The position numbers and the translations under genes were made by a program. DNA of 64,000 nt from Sanguibacter keddieii (lineage in GTDB: Bacteria > Actinomycetota > Actinomycetes > Actinomycetales > Actinomycetaceae), in the NCBI RefSeq assembly GCF_001064145.1, contig NZ_JVOJ01000032.1, forward strand, positions 20,927 to 84,926. The letters run 5' to 3'. Of the stretch, positions 3,261-55,174 are shown one piece after another (the first letter of the stretch is position 1; each line of letters starts with the position of its first letter). Under the pieces are notes generated by a model. The model saw nothing but the letters and a program-made list of their open reading frames with translations. It was not told the DNA's origin and did no database searches.

Positions 3261-4015
3261 TCTCCGCTTTCTTGGCTGGTTGTGGGGGCCTGTCCCGACT
3301 GGCTGGTCTCGGCCGACGGGACAGGCGTCGCACTCGGCGGCTGATCCGCCTTCCCCACTAGGATACCGAGCTGCTGCACCCAGGGGCGCGCCGGTCCGGT
3401 GGAAGCAGCTGCGGCCGCCAGCGCCGAGTCCTGATATTGCGGCCCCGGATCCACGACCGTGTATTGGGTCTCACCGGGTCGTACGAATCCGAGCCGCTCG
3501 CGCGCCTGAGTGGAGATGTAGTCGGGGTCATTCCACAGGTCAAGCTGACGCTGCATGTCAGCGTTCTGCTGCTGCTGCTGCGCAACCTGAGTCTTGATCT
3601 GCGCGAGTTCACGCTCCTGCTGCCACCACTGGTAGAGGCTGGGCACCAACATGACCGACAGGATCGCGGCGACGATCAGGACGACGAGAAGTCGCGTAGA
3701 CACGTCGAGACCACCGATGGACAGGACCGACGAGCCATCCGCGGAGGGACGCACAAAAGAACGCGACGAGCCCTTCTCGACGCCCTTATTCCTGCGGAAA
3801 AAGCTGCGCTTTGCGCCTTGTTCCCCCCGGGTACCCTTCGCCGACTTCTGGCGCTTCGCCGAGGCCTCGGCCCCCTTCGAGGACTGTGCAGCCTTCGCGG
3901 CCGCCCTGCGCTGGCGCGACTTTTCCGCGTTGATCTCACGCGTCGTACGCGCCGCCTCCGAACCGGAGGAGCGACGACGCGAGGAGGGGCGGGAAGAAGG
4001 ACGACGGCTAGCCAT
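3257..4015 (-). CDS. FtsB/DivIC-like septum formation initiator
   Basis: A 252-residue bitopic membrane protein of the FtsB/DivIC family, a divisome component linking FtsQ and FtsL homologues. Residues 1 to about 100 are a highly basic, Ser/Lys/Arg-rich cytoplasmic tail. One transmembrane helix follows (LLVVLIVAAILSVMLVP), then a Gln-rich coiled coil. The family signature DPDYISTQARERLGFVRPGE comes next, and a Pro/Ser-rich tail ends the protein. The long basic N-terminal extension is typical of actinobacteria. The position downstream of eno and the 4-nt overlap with DUF501 support the call. Confidence 0.88.
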   Translation of the reverse strand: MASRRPSSRPSSRRRSSGSEAARTTREINAEKSRQRRAAAKAAQSSKGAEASAKRQKSAKGTRGEQGAKRSFFRRNKGVEKGSSRSFVRPSADGSSVLSIGGLDVSTRLLVVLIVAAILSVMLVPSLYQWWQQERELAQIKTQVAQQQQQNADMQRQLDLWNDPDYISTQARERLGFVRPGETQYTVVDPGPQYQDSALAAAAASTGPARPWVQQLGILVGKADQPPSATPVPSAETSQSGQAPTTSQESGE

Positions 4016-4062
4016 TCTTCTATCGTGCCCTACATCGACGCATTTGGCTGATCCCCACGCCG

Positions 4063-4100
4063 AAAAAACTCCGCGCGGACCCTTGCGGGCCCGCGCGGAG
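4063..4100 (-). terminator. Rho-independent terminator of eno
   Basis: A perfect 10-bp stem (CTCCGCGCGG / CCGCGCGGAG) lies 22 nt past the eno stop. On the minus strand it is followed by a run of six T residues (plus-strand AAAAAA at 4063-4068). It should separate eno from the ftsB operon. Confidence 0.85.
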
Positions 4101-4122
4101 CTATGCGGCTAGTTGCCTAGGC

Positions 4123-5469
<1,347 letters not shown>

Positions 5470-5583: not shown

Positions 5584-6174
5584 TCACTGGGCGCTGCCAC
5601 CCAGGAGCGCGGCCGTGGGATCATCCTTGGCTCCAGATACGGCGTCACCGAACAGGGGCATGGTCGGGGCCTGGCCTCCACCCAGGGTCGGCTGGACGAA
5701 ACGCGGGTTCACGCGCACGTCGGAGCTGTCGCGGGCCTGCGCGAGGACCTGGTCAAGCTGCTGCACGGCCGATGGATTGGACTGCACGACCTGGTTGAGG
5801 TTCTGGGTGAGCAGGATCGACTTCACGGTTGCGCGGGTGGCGGGACCCAGCGTGCCGAGAGACTGATCCCCCAACTGCTCGGAGGCGCGCGCGGCAATCT
5901 GGTCGATCTGCTCGTCGGAGACGTCTGCGCCCACAGAGGCACCGGCGGCCTCCAGGAGCGGCAGGTTCACGAGCTGCGAGCGAATTTGCGCATCGGTGAT
6001 CTGCTGGCCACCCGTGAGCACAGACATCTGCTGGGCGGCCTGCGCAACCTCCTCGTTGGAATACGAGCCGGACGAGCTGACGACGGCGGCACCGGGATGG
6101 GCGGAGCACGCCCCCATTCCCAGTCCTGCGGCCGCGATCAGGGCGGCGGTGGCGAGCTGGCGTGTGTAGCGCAC
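5584..6174 (-). CDS. SurA_N-like secreted lipoprotein
   Basis: A 196-residue exported lipoprotein with an N-terminal hydrophobic signal (YTRQLATAALIAAAGLG) and the lipobox LGMGAC, so the mature protein should be anchored through Cys. The mature part has a helical region with SNEEVAQAAQQMSVL, GQQITDAQIRSQLVNLPLLEAAG and SDEQIDQIAA. This resembles the SurA N-terminal chaperone fold found in actinobacterial lipoproteins beside mfd, but no PPIase domain follows. GTG at 6174 is chosen because GAGGAAGGA precedes it at good spacing. A chaperone role is plausible but unproven. Confidence 0.75.
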   Translation of the reverse strand: MRYTRQLATAALIAAAGLGMGACSAHPGAAVVSSSGSYSNEEVAQAAQQMSVLTGGQQITDAQIRSQLVNLPLLEAAGASVGADVSDEQIDQIAARASEQLGDQSLGTLGPATRATVKSILLTQNLNQVVQSNPSAVQQLDQVLAQARDSSDVRVNPRFVQPTLGGGQAPTMPLFGDAVSGAKDDPTAALLGGSAQ

Positions 6175-11429: not shown

Positions 11430-12677
11430 TCAGTCCAGGCGTCCGGCGGGAGCTCCCGGGAGGGATCGGATGAAGTGGGGAGGCTCCCAGCCTCGCTCCG
11501 CGTATGCGGCCGCGACGGCTCGCGCCACACCCTCCACGGCATGCGCGTCGACGAGCGCGATCGCGCTGCCGCCGAAGCCGCCGCCCGTCATGCGCGCGCC
11601 ATGCGCGCCAGCGGCGCGCGCAGCCTCCACGGCCACGTCCAGTTCCTCGCAGGAGACCTCGTAGTCGTCGCGCAGCGAGTCGTGCGAATCGTTCAGGAGA
11701 GCGCCCGCGACCGCCAGGCGCGTGCCTTCCAGCGGTCCCTCGTCAAGAAGCTCGATGAAAGCGCGCGTCCGCGCAATTTCGGAGACGACGTGGCGCGTGC
11801 GAGCGGCCAGGCGCTCGCTGCCCAGCGCGGCCGTGGCCTCGTCCAGGTCCTCAACGTCCACGAGCTGGCCCACGCCGAGGATACGCGCTGACTCCTCGCA
11901 GTCCGCGCGACGCGACCCGTACTGGCCGTCCGCCAGAGAATGCTTGGCGCGCGTGTCGATAACGAGAAGCTCCAGTCCGACCGCGCTCAGATCGAAGGGA
12001 ACCTGGCGCGTCGACATGTCGCGGCAGTCGAGGGCCAGCGCATGACCCTCGCGGCAGCGCAGGGACGCCGTCTGGTCCAGGCCGCCCGTGTTCGCGCCCG
12101 CCACCTGATTTTCCGCGGTGCGCGCGGCATCGACGAGCACCTTGCGCCCCTCGTCGTTGGGGGCCTCGATCGTGCCCGCCAGACCGAGGTCGCACACCTC
12201 GTCGAGGGCCACCGCAGTCGCGCACTCGAGCGCGGCGCTCGACGACAGCCCCCCACCCAGGGGCACGCACGACCACAGGGCCGCGTCAAAACCAGGCAGC
12301 GGTCCGTATCCAGCCTGCTCGAGGGCCCACGCGACACCTGCAAGGTAAGCGGTCCAATGGTTCGTCACCTCACCAGGGGTCTCCTTCGGGCCGATCACGT
12401 CGAGATCGAGGACGTCGATCGCCTCGCGCGTCTGCGGCGAAATCAGGCGGATCGTCCGATCCTCGCGAGGCGCCAGCGCCACGTATGCGCGGTGCGGCAG
12501 AGCGATCGGGACGCACGGGCCACCGTTGTAGTCCACGTGCTCGCCGATGATATTGACGCGCCCGGGCGCGCTCCACACGCCCCGAGGCTCGTAGCCAAAC
12601 GCGTCACGAAACAGGTCTGCGGCCTGCGCGGCCCCTTCATCGGGCGTAGCGGCGTCGGCCCACACGAGATCAGTCAC
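11430..12677 (-). CDS. galK: Galactokinase
   Basis: A 415-residue GHMP-family galactokinase that phosphorylates galactose to galactose-1-phosphate, the first step of the Leloir pathway. The galactokinase signature GRVNIIGEHVDYNGG is near residue 43. The ATP-binding PLGGGLSSSAALE loop is central, and GARMTGGGFGGSAIALV is near the C-terminus. The GTG start has AAGGAGG upstream. galT and galE are not in the window and no sugar-specific regulator is adjacent, so control is unknown. Confidence 0.95.
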   Translation of the reverse strand: MTDLVWADAATPDEGAAQAADLFRDAFGYEPRGVWSAPGRVNIIGEHVDYNGGPCVPIALPHRAYVALAPREDRTIRLISPQTREAIDVLDLDVIGPKETPGEVTNHWTAYLAGVAWALEQAGYGPLPGFDAALWSCVPLGGGLSSSAALECATAVALDEVCDLGLAGTIEAPNDEGRKVLVDAARTAENQVAGANTGGLDQTASLRCREGHALALDCRDMSTRQVPFDLSAVGLELLVIDTRAKHSLADGQYGSRRADCEESARILGVGQLVDVEDLDEATAALGSERLAARTRHVVSEIARTRAFIELLDEGPLEGTRLAVAGALLNDSHDSLRDDYEVSCEELDVAVEAARAAGAHGARMTGGGFGGSAIALVDAHAVEGVARAVAAAYAERGWEPPHFIRSLPGAPAGRLD

Positions 12678-12809
12678 AAGATCCTCCTTGGTCTCACTTC
12701 CTCAAGGCTACGTGAACGCCCTCACACCCTTCAAGCGCTACGGCCTCATCGCGCGCGCCCCGACACCCGGTACAGTGGAGCCACCACAACCGCGACACAG
12801 GCAGGCCCC

Positions 12810-13358
12810 ATGTTCCTCCCCCAACGACTTCCCGGCCAGGACTGGCTCGGTGTCGTCGTCGCGATTCCCGAACCGTGGGTCACGCAGCTCACTGACCTGC
12901 GCCTGCGCCTCGGAGACCTGGCAGGATCACGCATCCCCGCGCACATCACGCTGATGCCGCCCACGCCCGTCGCACGCGAAGCGCGCGCCGAAGTCATCGA
13001 CCACCTGCGCTCCATCGCCTCGAGGCACTCCCCTTTCCGCGTCACCCTGTCGGGCACCGATTCCTTCCGCCCCATCTCCAACGTCGCTTTCATGACGCTG
13101 GCCGAAGGTGCTTCCGACTGCACGGACCTCGCCGAGGAGATCCGCTCCGGCCCCCTCGACCACGAGACGCGCTTTCCCTATCACCCTCACGTGACGCTGG
13201 CTCAGGACGTCGACGACATCACCCTGGACATGGCCCTCGACATCGGCGCGACCGTCGAGGCCTCCTGGATCGTTCCGGGTTTCCGCCTGGACCGCATCGA
13301 CCCCTCGGGCATCTACTCCTCAATGGCACTGTTCGACTTCGACGCCTCCGGGCACTGA
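12810..13358 (+). CDS. 2'-5' RNA ligase family (2H phosphoesterase) protein
   Basis: A 182-residue cytoplasmic 2H-superfamily protein. The two catalytic HxT motifs are HITLMPP (near residue 49) and HPHVTLA (near residue 130), the diagnostic pair for 2'-5' RNA ligase/cyclic phosphodiesterase enzymes. They act on 2',3'-cyclic phosphate or 2'-5' linkages; the cellular substrate is unknown. The gene stands alone, divergent from galK. ATG 12810 is the first start giving a family-length protein; its ribosome site (GCAGG) is weak, so the start is moderately sure. Confidence 0.82.
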   Translation: MFLPQRLPGQDWLGVVVAIPEPWVTQLTDLRLRLGDLAGSRIPAHITLMPPTPVAREARAEVIDHLRSIASRHSPFRVTLSGTDSFRPISNVAFMTLAEGASDCTDLAEEIRSGPLDHETRFPYHPHVTLAQDVDDITLDMALDIGATVEASWIVPGFRLDRIDPSGIYSSMALFDFDASGH

Positions 13359-13732
13359 CTTCCTGCCAGACTGTCGCCTGCTCTTTTCACCGCCCGCTTT
13401 CCGCGCGGCAGGATCCCTGTCTGCCCGCTCATCGCCCACTCATCACGCGCTCATCACACGCTGGTGTTCCGGGCGCCGAATGGCCCGGCCGTGGGGCCGG
13501 GCTGCGCCGTGGGCGGCGGCCCGCCCGCGAGCCGTCCGCGCCGCGAGCTTCGCTCGGCGCGTCGGCTCGTTGTCCGGCCAGGCCCCGCCACCGCCCACGG
13601 GCACCGCAGCCAGGCCTTCCGGCCCCTCCGGCGCCCTCCACACCGGCGCTCTCCTTACTGCGAGTAGCCAGCCCAAGCCACACCACAATCTGCAAGCACC
13701 GCCAGGACCCACAGCCCCATCTTCGGGGCATT
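13359..13732. other. GC-rich intergenic stretch, no credible gene
   Basis: No codon-plausible frame is seen on either strand. It contains three CTCATC copies at an exact 11-bp spacing (13428, 13439, 13450) and a very GC-rich, hairpin-prone segment around 13480-13620. Confidence 0.5.
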
Positions 13733-13894
13733 ATCCGGATAGGTTGCGCGCACGCGGATAGGTTATGCACATCCGGATAGGTTATTAAGCTATCCGGATG
13801 ATCGTTACCTATCCGGATATTCGCTTCCTATCCGGATGATCGTTACCTATCCAGATGTTCGCTTCCTATCCGGATATTCGCTTCCTATCCGGAT
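13733..13894. repeat. Inverted array of ATCCGGATAGG units, 19-bp period (3 forward + 6 reverse)
   Basis: Forward units ATCCGGATAGG (one degenerate) start at 13733, 13752 and 13771. The orientation then flips, and reverse units CCTATCCGGAT start at 13789 (first base differs), 13808, 13827, 13846 (one mismatch), 13865 and 13884. Spacing is exactly 19 bp within each arm and 18 bp across the flip. The 8-nt spacers are semi-conserved (TTATGCAC in the left arm; GATCGTTA and ATTCGCTT alternating in the right arm). It lies between the convergent RNA-ligase-like and exonuclease III genes, next to a copy of the 106-bp element. Confidence 0.95.
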
Positions 13895-13926
13895 GCGTAT
13901 TGGCCCCTGGGACAGCCCCACCAATG

Positions 13927-14031
13927 TCGCACGCAATTCCCCCACACCTATTTCAAACCATGAATTCACTTTGTTGGAATTGCAACGTTTCCAGCGATTG
14001 TTGAAACTTCATCCAAACGAATTACGTGCGA
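13927..14031 (+). repeat. 106-bp dispersed element, copy A
   Basis: This 105-bp AT-rich element is bounded by TCGCACGCAATTC on the left and its inverse GAATTACGTGCGA on the right (one mismatch). An internal CAACGTT begins 56 nt from the left end. The same architecture recurs at 37941-38046 and, inverted, at 60322-60428. No reading frame is present. Confidence 0.9.
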
Positions 14032-14084
14032 AATTTTGGAAAACAGTGCCACAGCTCACACAACAGGCCTCCCGCAGACACGAA

Positions 14085-14145: not shown

Positions 14146-14973
14146 TCAGATCTCGTAGGTTACCGAGACCGGCGCATGATCCGAGAAGCGCTCCGCATAC
14201 TCGTCGGCGCGGCCGATCTCGAAGGAACACGCACGCTCACCCAGGGCGGGCGTCGCGTACTGATAGTCAATGCGCCAACCCGCGTTGTTCACGAAGGCCT
14301 GGCCTCGCCACGACCACCACGAGTAGGGGCCCTGCACGTCGCCAGCCAGGTCGCGCACGGTGTCGCGCCACCCTTCCTCCACCCACTGATTGAGGAAAAC
14401 GATCTCCTCGTCGAGGACACCGGCACGCTTGTTGTGGTTCGGCTTCCAGTTCTTAATGTCGGCCTCCGAGCGCACGACGTTGAAGTCGCCACACACGAGC
14501 GAGGAGATACCCCCGGCAGCCTCCTCGGCGAGCAGCTCGGCCATGCGTGCACCGATGCGCGGCAGGTGCGCCATCTTGGCCTCCTGCTTGGGAGTGTCCT
14601 TCTCACCCGAGTGGAAGTATGCGGAAACCACGCGCACGGGAGTCTCGCCGCCCTCGGGACGCACGATGACCTCGAGCCAGCGACCCGAATCCACGTCCGT
14701 CTCGGCGTCGTCGAGAACCAGACGGGGCTCGCCTTCGCGGACCGCTCGCCCACGTCGCACGGCTACGCCCACGCCCGCGCGGCCCTTGATGCGGCAGGGA
14801 ACCCACACGCTGTCCCAGGCCTCGCCCATAATCTCGCGGGAAATCTCCTCGGGCGCGCGCACCTCCTGCATGAGCAGCACATCCGTGTCGGACCCCTCCA
14901 GCCAGTCGAGGAAGCCGCGCTTATGGGCGGCGCGGATGCCGTTCAGGTTCACGGTGGTCACCGTCAGAGTCAT
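14146..14973 (-). CDS. xth: Exodeoxyribonuclease III (AP endonuclease family)
   Basis: A 275-residue Mg-dependent exonuclease III/AP endonuclease for base-excision repair. Motifs in order are TTVNLNGIRAAHKRGFLDWL (metal-ligand Asn), VLLMQEVRAPEE (catalytic Glu), VVSAYFHSG, LVCGDFNVVRSEADIKNW (Asp/Asn), and the C-terminal WRIDYQYATP and FSDHAPVSVTYE (catalytic Asp-His). An AAGGAGAAAACG ribosome site supports the ATG. No regulatory box is evident. It converges on the repeat-rich intergenic region. Confidence 0.94.
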   Translation of the reverse strand: MTLTVTTVNLNGIRAAHKRGFLDWLEGSDTDVLLMQEVRAPEEISREIMGEAWDSVWVPCRIKGRAGVGVAVRRGRAVREGEPRLVLDDAETDVDSGRWLEVIVRPEGGETPVRVVSAYFHSGEKDTPKQEAKMAHLPRIGARMAELLAEEAAGGISSLVCGDFNVVRSEADIKNWKPNHNKRAGVLDEEIVFLNQWVEEGWRDTVRDLAGDVQGPYSWWSWRGQAFVNNAGWRIDYQYATPALGERACSFEIGRADEYAERFSDHAPVSVTYEI

Positions 14974-17296: not shown

Positions 17297-17340
17297 GGGG
17301 TTCTCCTATTGATCATCCGATGATGGTTGGCAGTGGCCTC

Positions 17341-17412
17341 TAGCCCAGGCGGGCGGCTATCGATGCCGACGCGTCGCTCCCCGGTGGTGGCCCACCTGTT
17401 CGCCAGTCACGA
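17341..17412 (-). promoter_or_regulatory. ZTP (pfl) riboswitch upstream of glyA-folD
   Basis: On the minus strand the leader reads CGTGACTGGCGAACAGGTGG, then GGCCACCACCGGGGAGCGA, a variable hairpin, and GCCGCCCGCCTGGGC. These are the conserved blocks of the pfl motif, which binds ZTP/ZMP and often precedes glyA, folD and pur genes in actinobacteria. It sits about 45 nt upstream of the glyA start. Recognition is by eye. Confidence 0.85.
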
Positions 17413-17553
17413 CACGATTACCAGTCTATCGCTCGGCAGTTTTCCGCGCATTCTGCCAAGGTGTCAGCAAGCTACCAGCTGGTCATGCAGCGTTCAGATC
17501 TGACGTGCACAACTCGTCAGGTGTACGAAATCACAGCGTTTTTTCGCTTGTAC

Positions 17554-19002: not shown

Positions 19003-19049
19003 ATGCGGATAGGTTATGACGATATGGATAGGACAATGACCTATCCAGA
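19003..19049. repeat. Small inverted array of ATCCGGATAGG-type units (2 forward + 1 reverse)
   Basis: Degenerate forward units begin at 19003 (ATGCGGATAGG) and 19022 (ATATGGATAGG), 19 bp apart. One reverse unit CCTATCCAGA begins at 19040. The 18-bp junction equals that of the arrays at 13.7 and 55.1 kb. It lies between the convergent sugar transferase and WecG-like genes. Confidence 0.85.
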
Positions 19050-19203: not shown

Positions 19204-19983
19204 TCAGCGAAGCGTCACGCCTCCGACCAGCCCGAGATCGTCGAAGCTACCCATCGCCTCAAGCCGAGAGATCAGCTCGGGCGCGTGAGCGACGAAGTCG
19301 AGGGCCTCAACGGTGTAGCGCTTCGTGAGGCGCTTGGGCTCGTGCGCGATGCGCCACGCCCAGCCGAGGCGCGCGGCATGTACCCAGTTCGGGAAATAGT
19401 CGTCGGCTGCTCGCGCGTACTGGTCGATCCACCCACCCGCGGTGCACACGGAGGCCTCGGGAACGAGCCCGAGCGCGACGGATGCAACGACCTCCTGGAG
19501 GCCAGCCCCCAGGCCGACGATGACGAGTCGCGGGTCGAAGGCGGTGAGCACAGACGGATCCGCCTTCAATCGACGCAAGCCCTCGTAGCCGTCGATGACC
19601 TGCACGTCGAAGCGGTGCAGGCGCTCAGCTGCCGCCGCACCGGCCTCGGGCACAGCCCCGATGAGGGTGATGCGGGTGCCGTCCTCGAGGCGTTCGAAGA
19701 CGTGCGGCAGGACGAGGTCCGCGGAGGTGCGGGCGACCTCGTGGCCTGCTGCGCGCAGACGCATCTGCAGGAGGGTCCCGTCGAAGCCGACGGTGTGCAT
19801 GCGAGCAAGTGCGCGGAAGTCGGCGTGCAGAAGGGACCAGTGGTTCAGCCACGTGGTCGTGTGCCCTCGGGTGAGCACGCGCTGCGCCATGGCGTCGAAT
19901 GCGGGGTCGGTCGCGGGGGCACCGACCGCGCCGGCGGCCTCGGGCACGTCCGGGCCGCCAGCGGGGGCTGACTGGTCAGTCAT
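19204..19983 (-). CDS. WecG/TagA/CpsF-family glycosyltransferase
   Basis: A 259-residue glycosyltransferase related to WecG/TagA/CpsF (GT26), which typically adds ManNAc-type sugars to a lipid-linked acceptor. After a low-complexity N-terminus it shows HTVGFDGTLLQMRLRAAG, ITLIGAVPEAGAAAAERL, DPRLVIVGLGAGLQE and CTAGGWIDQYARAADDYFPN. These align with the family's DG, GG, GLGxPxQE and GVGGxFD segments, but FDG and GAGLQE depart from the usual residues. Activity on a non-standard donor or acceptor is therefore possible. It starts 6 nt after the giant secreted protein gene ends, so the two are probably co-transcribed. Confidence 0.8.
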   Translation of the reverse strand: MTDQSAPAGGPDVPEAAGAVGAPATDPAFDAMAQRVLTRGHTTTWLNHWSLLHADFRALARMHTVGFDGTLLQMRLRAAGHEVARTSADLVLPHVFERLEDGTRITLIGAVPEAGAAAAERLHRFDVQVIDGYEGLRRLKADPSVLTAFDPRLVIVGLGAGLQEVVASVALGLVPEASVCTAGGWIDQYARAADDYFPNWVHAARLGWAWRIAHEPKRLTKRYTVEALDFVAHAPELISRLEAMGSFDDLGLVGGVTLR

Positions 19984-37397: not shown

Positions 37398-37904
37398 ATG
37401 CAGATTCGCATCGCATGCCACGAAGACCTCGCGTTTATCGAGGCGGCGTATGAGCAAGCCCGGGCATTCATGCAGGCGAATGGGAATGCGACTCAGTGGC
37501 CCAACGGATATCCGGGGCGCACTGACGCTGAGGAAGACATCGCACGCGGACACTGTTTCCTTGTGGCCGACGACGAGGGGCCGCTCGCCGTCTTTTCTTT
37601 CGCTGCCGGACCAGACGAGACCTACGCCGAGATCGATGGTGCGTGGCATTCCGATGCCGACTACTACGTCATTCACCGCGTGGCCGCGGTGCGTGGGCGT
37701 GGGGTCGCGCGGGCAATTTTCAGCTTTGCGGCCAAGCATGCGGACTACCTGCGCTGCGACACCCACGAGGACAACGCACCGATGCGGCGCGCGCTCACGT
37801 CCTTCGGATTCCGCGAGTGCGGCACGATCACGGTCGCCAACGGCACGCAGCGCGTTGCCTACGACTGGATCAAGAAGCCGCGCACCAGCACGACCACCCA
37901 CTAG
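37398..37904 (+). CDS. GNAT family N-acetyltransferase
   Basis: A 168-residue GNAT acetyltransferase using acetyl-CoA. The first strand RIACHEDLAFIEAAYEQARAF is typical of small GNATs. The acetyl-CoA pyrophosphate loop is VIHRVAAVRGRGVARAIFSFA (R-x-x-G-x-A form). DTHEDNAPMRRALTSFGFRECGTI is the motif-B segment. The substrate cannot be assigned. It is monocistronic, preceded by the repeat cluster at 36.96-37.33 kb and followed by a copy of the 106-bp element. Confidence 0.88.
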   Translation: MQIRIACHEDLAFIEAAYEQARAFMQANGNATQWPNGYPGRTDAEEDIARGHCFLVADDEGPLAVFSFAAGPDETYAEIDGAWHSDADYYVIHRVAAVRGRGVARAIFSFAAKHADYLRCDTHEDNAPMRRALTSFGFRECGTITVANGTQRVAYDWIKKPRTSTTTH

Positions 37905-37940
37905 CCGTCCCGCATGCCCACGCTGCTTTACCAAACAATC

Positions 37941-38046
37941 TCGCACGTAATTCCTAGACACCACGAATTTGCGAGGCCCCAGAAAGCGCAGAATTTCAAC
38001 GTTCTGATTTCAAATTCTGAAGGACTCTGAATAGAATTACGTGCGA
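37941..38046 (+). repeat. 106-bp dispersed element, copy B
   Basis: Bounded by TCGCACGTAATTC (37941-37953) and its exact inverse GAATTACGTGCGA (38034-38046). CAACGTT begins 57 nt from the left end. It begins 37 nt after the GNAT stop and is followed 28 nt later by the GCATTACACCCG array. Confidence 0.9.
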
Positions 38047-38073
38047 AGTTTTGAAGGCTGCACCCGTTATGGA

Positions 38074-38210
38074 GCATTACACCCGATCAGTGGGCATTAC
38101 ACCCGATCAGAACGGGTGCAATGCCTACAACGCCCTCGTGCGCGTCGACTCCGTCAGTGGGCATTACACCCGATCAGAACGGGTGCAATGTTCACTGATC
38201 GGGTGCACGC
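38074..38210. repeat. Two inverted arrays of GCATTACACCCG units, 20-bp period
   Basis: Forward GCATTACACCCG at 38074 and 38094 is followed by reverse CGGGTGCAATGC at 38113. A second array has forward 38161 and reverse 38180 and 38200 (last degenerate). The period is 20 bp. The junction between heptamer starts (TTACACC to GGTGCAA) is 18 bp, as in the ATCCGGATAGG arrays. Confidence 0.9.
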
Positions 38211-38363
38211 CCTCATCGGCGACAAGCTCTATCGCGGATGCGCTTCCTACGCGGAATGGACACCACGACTAAACCCCACTCCACACACCGACGCTCTAGC
38301 CAAGGCCACTCACGATGGCACTCACCGACGTGTAGTAGGCATCAGGCCGCAATGATGCTTGTT
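38211..38363. other. Intergenic stretch between arrays, nothing recognised
   Basis: No credible reading frame, RNA or repeat was seen between the 38.1 and 38.4 kb arrays. Confidence 0.4.
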
Positions 38364-38456
38364 CCTAAGTGGTGTTACACCACTTAGGGGGCATTACACC
38401 AGCTCGGAGATGGTGTAATGCCCCCTAACTGGTGTAATGCTCCCTAACTGGTGCAG
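38364..38456. repeat. Inverted array of TTACACC/GGTGTAA units, 19-bp period
   Basis: TTACACC at 38375 and 38394, then GGTGTAA at 38412 and 38431 and GGTGCAG at 38450: 19-bp period, 18-bp junction. Two perfect hairpins overlap it: CCTAAGTGGTG/CACCACTTAGG (38364-38388) and the 15-bp GGGGGCATTACACCA stem with a 9-nt loop (38387-38425). Confidence 0.9.
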
Positions 38457-38540
38457 GGGTGCCCAGCACGGCTCGGCTGACATCTTGTTGGAGCAGCTAT
38501 CGGGCAGATCTCGCCGCGCGCAGGCTTGTTGCTCAGTAGC

Positions 38541-38632
38541 GTTGCACCACTTCGCGCAGCATTGCACTGGGTAGTAAGCAGTGCATTGCCGCGCTATCTA
38601 GTGCATTGCTGCCGTACCTAGTGAATCGCTCC
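38541..38632. repeat. Inverted array of TTGCACC/AGTGCAT units, 20-bp period
   Basis: TTGCACC at 38542 and TTGCACT at 38562, then AGTGCAT at 38580 and 38600 and AGTGAAT at 38620: 20-bp period with the same 18-bp junction. It is the most diverged of the three local arrays. Confidence 0.8.
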
Positions 38633-38793
38633 ATTATGGGGGTCTGCCACACGTCACCGAGGTGCCACGACCGCGCCACACTCACAGATGAACCCCGCGG
38701 CCCCCAAGCCAAGGCCCCCCAAGCCACGACCCCGCACACACGGGTGCACACCAAGCCCACACCCAAACACACGGCCACACCCCGCATACATGC

Positions 38794-38829
38794 GGGCGCG
38801 CGCCCGGCCAATCAGCCGGGCGCGCGCCC
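38794..38829 (-). terminator. Terminator of mdh
   Basis: A perfect 15-bp GC-only stem (GGGCGCGCGCCCGGC) with a CAATCA loop, 30 nt past the mdh stop. Confidence 0.85.
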
Positions 38830-38859
38830 TTCCCACCAACCGCCACGAGGGCGGTAGCC

Positions 38860-39936
<1,077 letters not shown>

Positions 39937-54246: not shown

Positions 54247-55002
54247 ATGAACGATGATGTTTCGACCCTGGCGGAATGGATCGCTGCCTCACCGTCCACC
54301 GTGTTTTTCGGCGGCGCGGGCGTGTCCACCGAGTCGGGGATCCCCGATTTTCGCGGGGCAAACGGCTTCTACTTTCAGGAGCGCGAGATTCCCCTGGAGA
54401 CGGTGCTGAGCATCGACTTCTTTGAGCGGCATCCGCAGGCCTACTGGGAGTGGTTCCACGAGATCTACCGTCCGGTGGAGCCCAACGGCGCGCACAGGGC
54501 ACTGGCATCTCTGGAGGCCGCGGGGCGCCTGGACGCGGTCATCACGCAGAATATCGACGGCCTGCACCAGCGGGCCGGGTCGCGCGCCGTGTGGGAGCTA
54601 CACGGCAACTGGGAGCGGCTCGTGTGCACGAGCTGCGGGGCCGTCGCATCATTAGGGGATGCCGTCACGGTTGACGGTGATCCCGTGCCCGCGTGCCCGT
54701 CGTGCGGAGGGCAGATGCGCCCAGACATCGTCATGTACGGGGAAGGCCTCGACCAGGGCGTCATCGAGGCCGCCGTGTCCGCCATCGCGCGAGCGTCCGT
54801 GCTGATCGTGGCGGGCACGTCCCTCGTGGTCTACCCGGCGGCGGGCCTCATCAACTACTTCTCGGGGGACCACCTGGTGCTCATGAACGCCACCCCGACC
54901 TCGGCCGACGCACACGCCGACCTGATCATCCGCGAGCCGGTGGGCGCGACCCTCGACCGCGTCATGGACCAGCTGCGCGCGCGGGGCGTCGTTCCCGCGT
55001 AG
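54247..55002 (+). CDS. cobB: Sirtuin-type NAD-dependent protein deacylase
   Basis: A 251-residue sirtuin that removes acyl groups from lysines while cleaving NAD. NAD-binding motifs are FFGGAGVSTESGIPDFRGANG, then ITQNIDGLHQRAGS with catalytic His in ELHGNW. A Cys4 zinc site comes from CTSC and CPSC. DIVMYGEGLD and VAGTSLVVYPAAGLINY complete the fold. YxxR deacylase-pocket residues typical of SIRT5-like enzymes are not clear; FYFQEREI is the candidate loop. AGGAGG precedes the ATG. Position after pta-ackA suggests it counters acetyl-phosphate acetylation. Confidence 0.94.
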   Translation: MNDDVSTLAEWIAASPSTVFFGGAGVSTESGIPDFRGANGFYFQEREIPLETVLSIDFFERHPQAYWEWFHEIYRPVEPNGAHRALASLEAAGRLDAVITQNIDGLHQRAGSRAVWELHGNWERLVCTSCGAVASLGDAVTVDGDPVPACPSCGGQMRPDIVMYGEGLDQGVIEAAVSAIARASVLIVAGTSLVVYPAAGLINYFSGDHLVLMNATPTSADAHADLIIREPVGATLDRVMDQLRARGVVPA

Positions 55003-55069: not shown

Positions 55070-55174
55070 ATCCGGATAGGTTGTGCGCATATGGATAGGT
55101 TATGCACATCCGGATAGCTTATTTTCCTATCCGCATCTTCATAACCTATCCGGATGTTCGTAACCTATCCGCAT
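55070..55174. repeat. Inverted array of ATCCGGATAGG units, 19-bp period (3 forward + 3 reverse)
   Basis: Forward units start at 55070, 55089 (degenerate) and 55108. Reverse units CCTATCCGCAT, CCTATCCGGAT and CCTATCCGCAT start at 55126, 55145 and 55164. The period is 19 bp and the junction 18 bp. Left-arm spacers TTGTGCGC and TTATGCAC nearly match those of the 13.7-kb array (TTGCGCGC and TTATGCAC). It sits between the convergent sirtuin and NAD-kinase-like genes. The rest of 55003-55315 shows no gene. Confidence 0.95.

Follow-up and report, generated by a model that had tools for sequence, protein, structure and literature searches.

Head-to-Head GGATAGG Arrays in the Intergenic DNA of a Schaalia odontolytica-like Genome and a Candidate Vsr-like Nuclease Partner

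Arrays and Genes of the Window

The DNA analyzed in this work, hereafter the window, is a stretch of 64,000 nucleotides (C32:20927-84926) of the 2.36-Mb genome of an oral, Schaalia odontolytica-like actinobacterium (G000). It harbors three arrays of short oriented units built around the motif GGATAGG, as well as arrays of a second kind (Table 1). An initial annotation, made from the bare sequence, had placed three GGATAGG arrays here, and all of them were found in place; moreover, the palindrome ATCCGGAT, which it regarded as the core of the unit, occurs in 10 copies in the window, above the 1.1 expected by chance and the maximum of 4 obtained in 100 shuffles. The unit numbers it gave are correct for arrays 1 and 3, while the 2+1 of array 2 describes a decayed copy, whose ortholog in G023 consists of 3+3 units.

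Table 1. Position of the arrays and of their neighboring genes in the window.
Feature	Position	Strand	Description
LigT/2'-5' RNA ligase-like gene	11940..13358	+	Pfam PF13563 (3e-23); left neighbor of array 1
Array 1	13733..13894	.	3+6 units ATSYGGATAGG-N8, head to head; center GGATAGGTTATTAAGCTATCC
Exonuclease/endonuclease/phosphatase family gene	14146..14973	-	Pfam PF03372; right neighbor of array 1
Array 2	19003..19049	.	decayed, 2+1 units (3+1 with two mismatches allowed); center GGATAGGACAATGACCTATCC
WecG/TagA glycosyltransferase-like gene	19204..19983	-	Pfam; right neighbor of array 2
Two group-2-like arrays	38059..38212	.	cores TTACACCCGATCAG / CGGGTGCAATG, by eye; junction 37904-38860
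Group-2 array	38362..38456	.	CCACTTAGGGGGCATTACACC / GGTGTAATGCYCCCTAACTGGTG; C32:59301-59382; kind found around the nuclease paralog of contig C20
Array-like variant	38541..38628	.	TTGCACCACTTCGCGCAG / AGTGCATTGC repeats, by eye only
Sir2-family gene	54247..55002	+	Pfam; left neighbor of array 3
Array 3	55070..55174	.	3+3 units; center GGATAGCTTATTTTCCTATCC

Genes were called with a home-made gene caller and their strand was cross-checked by Pfam. According to the gene caller, the junctions of all three GGATAGG arrays are convergent, and Pfam backs both neighbors of array 1 and one neighbor each of arrays 2 and 3. The true start of the LigT/2'-5' RNA ligase-like gene is probably downstream of the called one, and a terminator-like hairpin was seen by eye between the exonuclease-like gene and array 1. 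The initial annotation spoke of three convergent junctions, which is right for these arrays; however, the window also contains a fourth (37904-38860), which carries arrays of the second kind. Three or four of them, together with a TTTCGCACGTAATTC / GAATTACGTGCGAAA palindrome, lie within 38056-38628, and one of the two at 38059..38212 is matched by a motif search with 3 mismatches (C32:58984-59009).

Other repeats and signals were encountered along the way. The TTTCGCACGTAATTC / GAATTACGTGCGAAA sequence, named after its ends, is a dispersed imperfect palindrome of about 115-125 bp found beside arrays (window 13925-14045 and 37938-38050), with further copies at 4010-4145, 4440-4560, and 5690-5800 of locus L175. 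It occupies the array-1 junction in G023 and G010, both lacking an array there; downstream of the exonuclease-like gene, the G010 junction (L185) also has 18-bp units (GCGCAAAGGCTTGGTAAN) repeated in tandem. Repeats of the GCGGTGCCCGTGGGCGGTGG type are located near gene ends at about 13500-13640 of the window and at L183 of G025. The Rfam scan of the window retrieved only tRNA and a ZMP/ZTP riboswitch (17336-17420), upstream of the serine hydroxymethyltransferase gene.

Geometry of the GGATAGG Arrays

The period within the arms is exactly 19 bp, as rigid as initially described, and at the orientation flip of the window arrays the distance from GGATAGG to CCTATCC is 7 nt. In the whole genome of G000, 28 arrays with a recognizable center were parsed; in these, the GGATAGG units come first and the CCTATCC units follow, the period is 19, and the innermost pair is 7 nt apart, the intervening sequence being mostly TTAWTAA. 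An extra GGATAGG cluster devoid of a center is located near a contig start (L155). A larger set of 102 arrays was obtained from fetched regions of five species (G000, G025, G028, G023, and, in part, G019); three units make up 148 of its 204 arms, and outside the outermost unit strong information ends at position -4.

A neutral microsatellite or an assembly artefact can practically be dismissed as the origin of these structures. Unit numbers do vary, as this explanation would have it, but the geometry is common to many assemblies, the preference for three units per arm and the fixed 7-nt center run against it, and no arrays were found in shuffled sequence.

The initial annotation had further proposed that a dimeric protein might bind the successive sites on one face of the DNA. 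Since 19 bp corresponds to about 1.8 helical turns, which is no whole number, successive sites would not lie on one face, and this part of the proposal was dropped.

Gene Orientation and Terminators

The distribution of the arrays with respect to the flanking genes was analyzed in the five-species set. None of the 102 arrays lies inside a called gene; 54 are at convergent, 45 at tandem, and 2 at divergent junctions, and one is at a contig end. The background consisted of 200 array-free gaps longer than 100 bp from the same regions, of which 15 are convergent, 130 tandem, and 55 divergent. Convergent junctions are thus in excess among the arrays (54/101 vs. 15/200, P 1.9e-18) and divergent ones in deficit (2/101 vs. 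55/200, P 4.5e-9). The location between converging genes, correctly assigned to the three window arrays, is therefore enriched genome-wide but not exclusive.

Such a location might be expected of a bidirectional terminator, or of a long RNA hairpin selected at converging transcripts, the second possibility raised by the initial annotation. The arrays do lie at gene ends and the cores of their two arms are complementary by geometry. However, a terminator-like hairpin is present between the stop codon and the array in 86 of 144 gaps (37 in shuffled and 33 in antisense sequences), so that the array often lies beyond the gene's own terminator. Moreover, the GGATAGG arrays inspected by eye lack a T-run, and hence the layout of an intrinsic terminator (a hairpin, then a T-run, as primary terminator). 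Selection for an RNA stem should make the spacers of opposite arms pair better within arrays than between arrays. At the inner level, pairing shows no excess on either strand (7.47 vs. 7.46 and 7.59 vs. 7.56 of 12; n = 100), being the same as in the shuffled comparison; at the outer level (n = 77), it reaches 7.17 vs. 6.93 on one strand (P 0.117) and 7.43 vs. 7.10 on the other (P 0.047, uncorrected), the latter value being in favor of a hairpin. Because the arm spacers show no clear covariation, a long RNA hairpin is unlikely, and we regard the terminator or hairpin explanation as a whole as very improbable.

Conservation and Turnover at Orthologous Junctions

The array-1 junction carries an array in 4 of 10 clade members (G000 and, as orthologs, G019, G022, and G011; none in the other six), whereas the array-3 junction carries one in 7 of 10, that is, in six members besides G000 (degraded in G028), and lacks it in three. 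Array sizes vary among the clade members at both junctions. Over 51 comparisons in which both flanks are homologous (recognizable arrays only, and not independent, some loci recurring), differences affect 50 of 1988 cells (2.5%) at the seven core positions and 639 of 2184 (29%) in the spacer. The cores are therefore kept while the spacers drift. Within the unit, GGATA is almost invariant, and the two bases preceding GGATAGG, which complete the palindrome ATCCGGAT, changed in 43% and 41% of the orthologous cells, more than all other positions; the palindrome initially taken as the conserved core is thus not what is conserved. The number of units is identical in 16 of the 51 comparisons, and local duplications of an array plus its flank were also seen.

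The initial annotation had associated a neutral microsatellite with random gene orientation and absence from orthologous junctions, or with variable copy number at junctions that are not conserved. The outcome is mixed, although for the most part favorable to the initial annotation: orientation is non-random and many arrays stand at orthologous junctions, but copy number does vary, and arrays have been gained and lost. As for its idea of a protein-binding site, this is favored, leaving aside the one-face geometry, by the in-place conservation of the core next to freely varying spacers.

The turnover would also suit purely selfish or neutral repeats that owe their spread to the nuclease described below or to other machinery and are tolerated only where harmless: gains and losses at orthologous junctions, changes in unit number, and local duplications with the flank are all in keeping with this explanation, and the bias in location is what the removal of insertions from genes and promoters would produce. 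On the other hand, neutral copies should decay evenly, which the core and spacer counts contradict, within the limits of a set of recognizable arrays and 51 non-independent pairs. We consider this explanation rather unlikely; the conservation of the core in place suggests a use by the host, which a purely selfish reading does not predict.

Distribution Among Genomes

The pattern GGATAGG-N12-GGATAGG occurs 85 times in G000 and was matched in 12 of 58 genomes (G000 included), all belonging to one genus; ten have many copies, and G016 and G026 have one each. Arrays of this type are also present in S. odontolytica FDAARGOS_732 and Actinomyces sp. HPA0247, and, among the matches listed in the scan of named genomes, those outside Schaalia/Actinomyces are mostly single pairs.

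Different modes of carriage were considered. Phage carriage was set aside, no viral contig showing the exact center pattern. The array as a transposon end was discarded as well, since strong conservation outside the outer unit does not reach past -4. No target-site duplication was detected at the arrays, single offsets at 4 to 8 bases falling within the shuffles, with totals slightly raised (72 vs. 60 at 4 bases and 26 vs. 17 at 5); a 3-base signal (21 vs. a shuffled maximum of 12) is a product of the motif's own AT. The arrays do not appear to border general cargo, either: inter-array segments have few called genes, the exceptions being a nuclease gene and a nucleotidyltransferase/HEPN-like pair. 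This pair, at 4731-5557 of L175 (contig C59 of G000), consists of an Xre-HTH/nucleotidyltransferase gene (Pfam) and a HEPN-like neighbor (by eye) between two arrays, and in L326 of G028 two called genes of similar sizes also lie between arrays. At the contig ends L161 and L169, arrays are followed by a common GGGTCAAGTCCTGTG sequence, perhaps an insertion sequence adjoining them.

A Nuclease-like Gene Bracketed by Arrays

Outside the window, contig C37 of G000 harbors a gene coding for a protein of 344 residues between two GGATAGG arrays, in a segment of low G+C content (0.571 vs. 0.665 for the window). The gene, at 61% identity or more to the G000 protein (group 1), has GGATAGG arrays on both sides in all nine species possessing it. 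The gap to the array measures 21-106 bp at one border of the gene and 103-584 bp at the opposite border; the two bracketing arrays match best as direct repeats at six of the nine loci and as inverted repeats at three. In two sister species, G006 and G021, the nearest homologs (48% and 44% identity, respectively) lie between ATTGGGG arrays, the downstream one of G021 having been recognized by eye. No adjoining array was retrieved by two finders at the homologs of G016, G018, G024, and G026 (46-48%), where degenerate one-side repeats are visible by eye. In the protein tree, these four are the closest to group 1, with a support of 85/94; the G006 and G021 proteins branch separately, so that their orthology with group 1 is not established by the tree. 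G023 possesses 23 parsed arrays and no close group-1 gene; in this genome, as in G016 and G026, the outer flanks of the C37 locus enclose a single array and no gene.

A group of paralogs, located at one chromosomal site (group 2), is bracketed in 8 of 8 cases by arrays with species-specific cores, as judged by eye. The first finder retrieved none of the eight, probably because their two arms can differ in period, and the second, which tolerates such differences, retrieved arrays on both sides of two and on one side of a third; in all eight, the upstream flank is similar to the downstream one over a stretch of 60-531 bp. Altogether, 70 homolog loci of the genus were read; among the 47 more distant homologs, only five (first finder) or three (second finder) have an array, in each case on a single side.

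The analysis was extended to the order, where a profile search retrieved strong homologs in 33 of 198 genomes (G000 and G019 included). Twenty-eight loci, one per genome, were read with 1.5-kb flanks and compared with 120 random 3-kb windows from 16 of these genomes. Arrays flank 14 of the 28 homologs vs. 4 of 120 windows with the first finder (P 5.5e-9), and 13 vs. 3 with the second, 14-15 homologs being without an array depending on the finder. Bracketing on both sides was found at four loci (first finder) or two (second finder), one locus (L481) being cut at a contig end, and another positive (L474) may represent coding repeats. When 8-kb regions were re-read for 20 loci, all 6 positives included (of the 14) had arrays next to the gene and nowhere else, and none appeared in 14 of 14 negatives. 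In a representative of another genus (G102), TGCCGAGTTCGC arrays adjoin the nuclease homolog, and the core found beside the gene forms 124 pairs in that genome vs. 0 in 7 other genomes.

Predicted Structure of the Partner Protein

Pfam gives weak DUF559 and MTES_1575 matches at residues about 230-310 of the protein. Among seven homologs, one (L404) reaches the DUF559 cut-off with 20.6 bits and the others are below it or unmatched; MTES_1575 is below the Pfam gathering cut-off in all seven. The structure of the group-1 protein was predicted with a pLDDT of 87 and a pTM of 0.87. Among the fold families compared, residues 215-321 of the model match I-Bth0305I (Z 11.7; rmsd 2.0 over 91 residues), a gonococcal endonuclease-like protein (10.8), and Vsr (10.5), a fold that does not by itself show function, and residues 49-212 match AbiEi (Z 9.3, 128 residues) and, almost equally well, the MenT1/MenT-type nucleotidyltransferases (9.2 and 9.0). 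The region matched in AbiEi is its C-terminal domain (chain residues 55-195), not the DNA-binding winged helix. With Foldseek on its own, no hit fell below E 0.001.

According to the predicted fold, the partner protein carries a Vsr-like PD-(D/E)XK nuclease domain. All 27 aligned homologs share residues D251, E262, D264, and K268, an invariance that suggests an active nuclease in which these four residues would be catalytic.

Arrays with Other Cores and Their Change with the Protein

In 400 kb of G021, a genome devoid of GGATAGG arrays, a motif-free finder retrieved head-to-head ATTGGGGYAGG arrays with a period of 20. Pairs of this motif were found, among 35 genomes of the genus, 43 times in G006, 61 times in G021, and once in G031. 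Their center is AGG-N7-CCT, as in the GGATAGG arrays; core and period differ and the plan is common. The group-2 arrays are likewise dispersed in G000, with 37 matches (at most 3 mismatches) in about 17 places, including 38362-38456 of the window.

For group 2, four core types, assigned by eye, were compared with the proteins, divided into an N-terminal part and a C-terminal one with the nuclease domain. Pairs with different cores share 43-72% identity (mean 52) in the N-terminal part and 72-90% in the C-terminal one, vs. 73-94% and 81-97%, respectively, for pairs with a common core, and the core types track the group-2 protein tree. G031 departs from this rule, having its own core, yet an N-terminal part about 70% identical to that of four other group-2 proteins. 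G000 and G011 share the protein type (92%) and the core, even though one marker protein places G000 nearer to G019, G023, and G034. The comparison of group 1 with G006 and G021, which have different cores, does not discriminate, both parts being more diverged in these pairs (37-44% in the N-terminal and 50-57% in the C-terminal one). Judging from these identities, the N-terminal part diverges with the array core in paralog group 2.

This joint change bears on a further explanation, in which the arrays are chromosome-organizing sites of the host, or sites for gyrase or a nucleoid protein, placed at gene ends in a BIME-like manner; a host protein would bind them at convergent junctions, where positive supercoils accumulate, and the nuclease gene would just happen to be adjacent. 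The strong convergent excess and divergent avoidance reported above, the conservation of the core in place, and the persistence of arrays in G023 in spite of its lacking a close group-1 gene all agree with it. Nevertheless, the core varies by clade and by paralog locus in step with the protein type, which a conserved host protein is not expected to follow, and arrays occur beside the nuclease family far above background. We therefore consider such host sites unlikely as the full account, while the G023 arrays and the core conservation may leave room for a host function independent of the enzyme.

A Possible Gene-Array System

The reading that we prefer, with modest confidence, is that the arrays represent copies, scattered over the genome, of the DNA sites cognate to the Vsr/I-Bth0305I-like nuclease protein, gene and arrays forming one REP/RAYT-like system. 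It is built on the arrays themselves, their geometry and dispersal, the bracketing of the gene, the joint change in group 2, the core conservation, the predicted fold, and the invariant acidic and lysine residues; binding, cutting, and spreading by the protein are steps that we infer, and the host may or may not gain from them. Against this reading stand the unbracketed homologs of G016, G018, G024, and G026, the array-rich G023 with no close gene, the scarcity of arrays beside the more distant homologs, the mixed relative orientation of the bracketing arrays, the failure to find a target-site duplication, and the small number of group-2 core types, to which G031 makes an exception. In this scheme, the gene would be bracketed by its own arrays, with array copies scattered in extragenic DNA, and the N-terminal part of the protein may help to read the iterated core. 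It is the joint change that points to this role, since the DNA-binding domain of AbiEi has no match here. The head-to-head arms and the fixed, AT-rich 7-nt center suggest that several protomers may assemble on the tandem units of an arm and contact those of the opposite arm at the flip. Breaks provoked by the nuclease, followed by recombinational copying, might spread the arrays, which would persist where genes and promoters are uninterrupted, their cores being kept by selection; a change in protein type would entail a change in array core as well.

A wider form of this scheme is more tentative, and we give it slightly less than an even chance: an order-wide class of repeats plus enzyme, in which a Vsr-like nuclease propagates its own arrays and is re-targeted through the N-terminal part, and selection keeps, at gene ends, the clade-specific arrays with which many genomes have been seeded, would represent a second, independent invention of the REP/RAYT way of life. 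If so, repeat populations tied to a single gene would be a general solution, and a poorly characterized nuclease-like family would acquire a role. Furthermore, the natural variants of core and protein at one locus in close relatives offer material for studying the DNA recognition of the protein. The partnership of arrays and nuclease looks previously unrecognized: no paper on these arrays or on repeat-bracketed DUF559/MTES_1575 genes was found in the literature searched, from which subscription journals and preprints were mostly absent.

Comparison with Known Systems

Tn7-type transposons end in short direct repeats of about 20 bp, which are sites of the transposase and make up two inverted arms. 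The arrays resemble them in these repeats and arms; in contrast, their arms are joined by a fixed 7-nt center, and neither a conserved outer terminus nor a target duplication was found.

With I-Bth0305I, the EDxHD homing endonucleases, and Vsr, the partner protein shares the predicted fold of its C-terminal domain, and the gene-less loci of G016, G026, and G023, with their outer flanks and a single array, would be compatible either with insertion of the gene, as for a homing endonuclease, or with its deletion. The protein differs from I-Bth0305I and Vsr in its extra N-terminal part, and its candidate site takes the form of an iterated array, of which the genome contains dozens.

That N-terminal part (residues 49-212) resembles the C-terminal domain of AbiEi, from a type IV toxin-antitoxin system, and almost as closely MenT-type nucleotidyltransferases; the winged helix of AbiEi is unmatched, and the present protein has a nuclease domain in addition. 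Binding of AbiEi to DNA is cooperative and involves two 23-bp inverted repeats (PMC7319586). This property cannot simply be transferred to the present protein, because it belongs to full-length AbiEi, whose DNA-binding domain has no counterpart here. Moreover, unlike the AbiEi operator, the arrays are not limited to a promoter but flank the gene at either end and are scattered over the genome.

To our knowledge, dispersed bacterial repeats with a dedicated enzyme are essentially only those of the REP/RAYT systems. A REP transposase was rejected as the array partner, the Y1/HuH transposase domain PF01797 being found in 0 of the 35 genomes of the genus (the control matches 5 of 14 genomes); the enzyme here carries a Vsr-like nuclease domain instead. 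The repeats differ as well. REP is a palindrome of 20-40 nt (PMC3733652), whereas the arrays consist of two arms of 19-20 bp direct repeats and a 7-nt center rather than one palindrome. The GT(A/G)G head of REP (PMC2817692) is lacking in the GGATAGG unit consensus, while GTAG does occur inside ATTGGGGTAGG. BIMEs alternate the orientation of their units (PMC2817692); the arrays share with them the intergenic position and the oriented short units, but switch orientation once per array. In RAYT systems, the repeats are multi-copy and extragenic and also border the RAYT gene on both sides, a different enzyme goes with a different repeat, and the enzyme diverges fast (PMC2817692). The system described here is alike in all these traits, having multi-copy extragenic arrays, a bracketed enzyme gene, an array that changes with the enzyme, and a fast-diverging enzyme.
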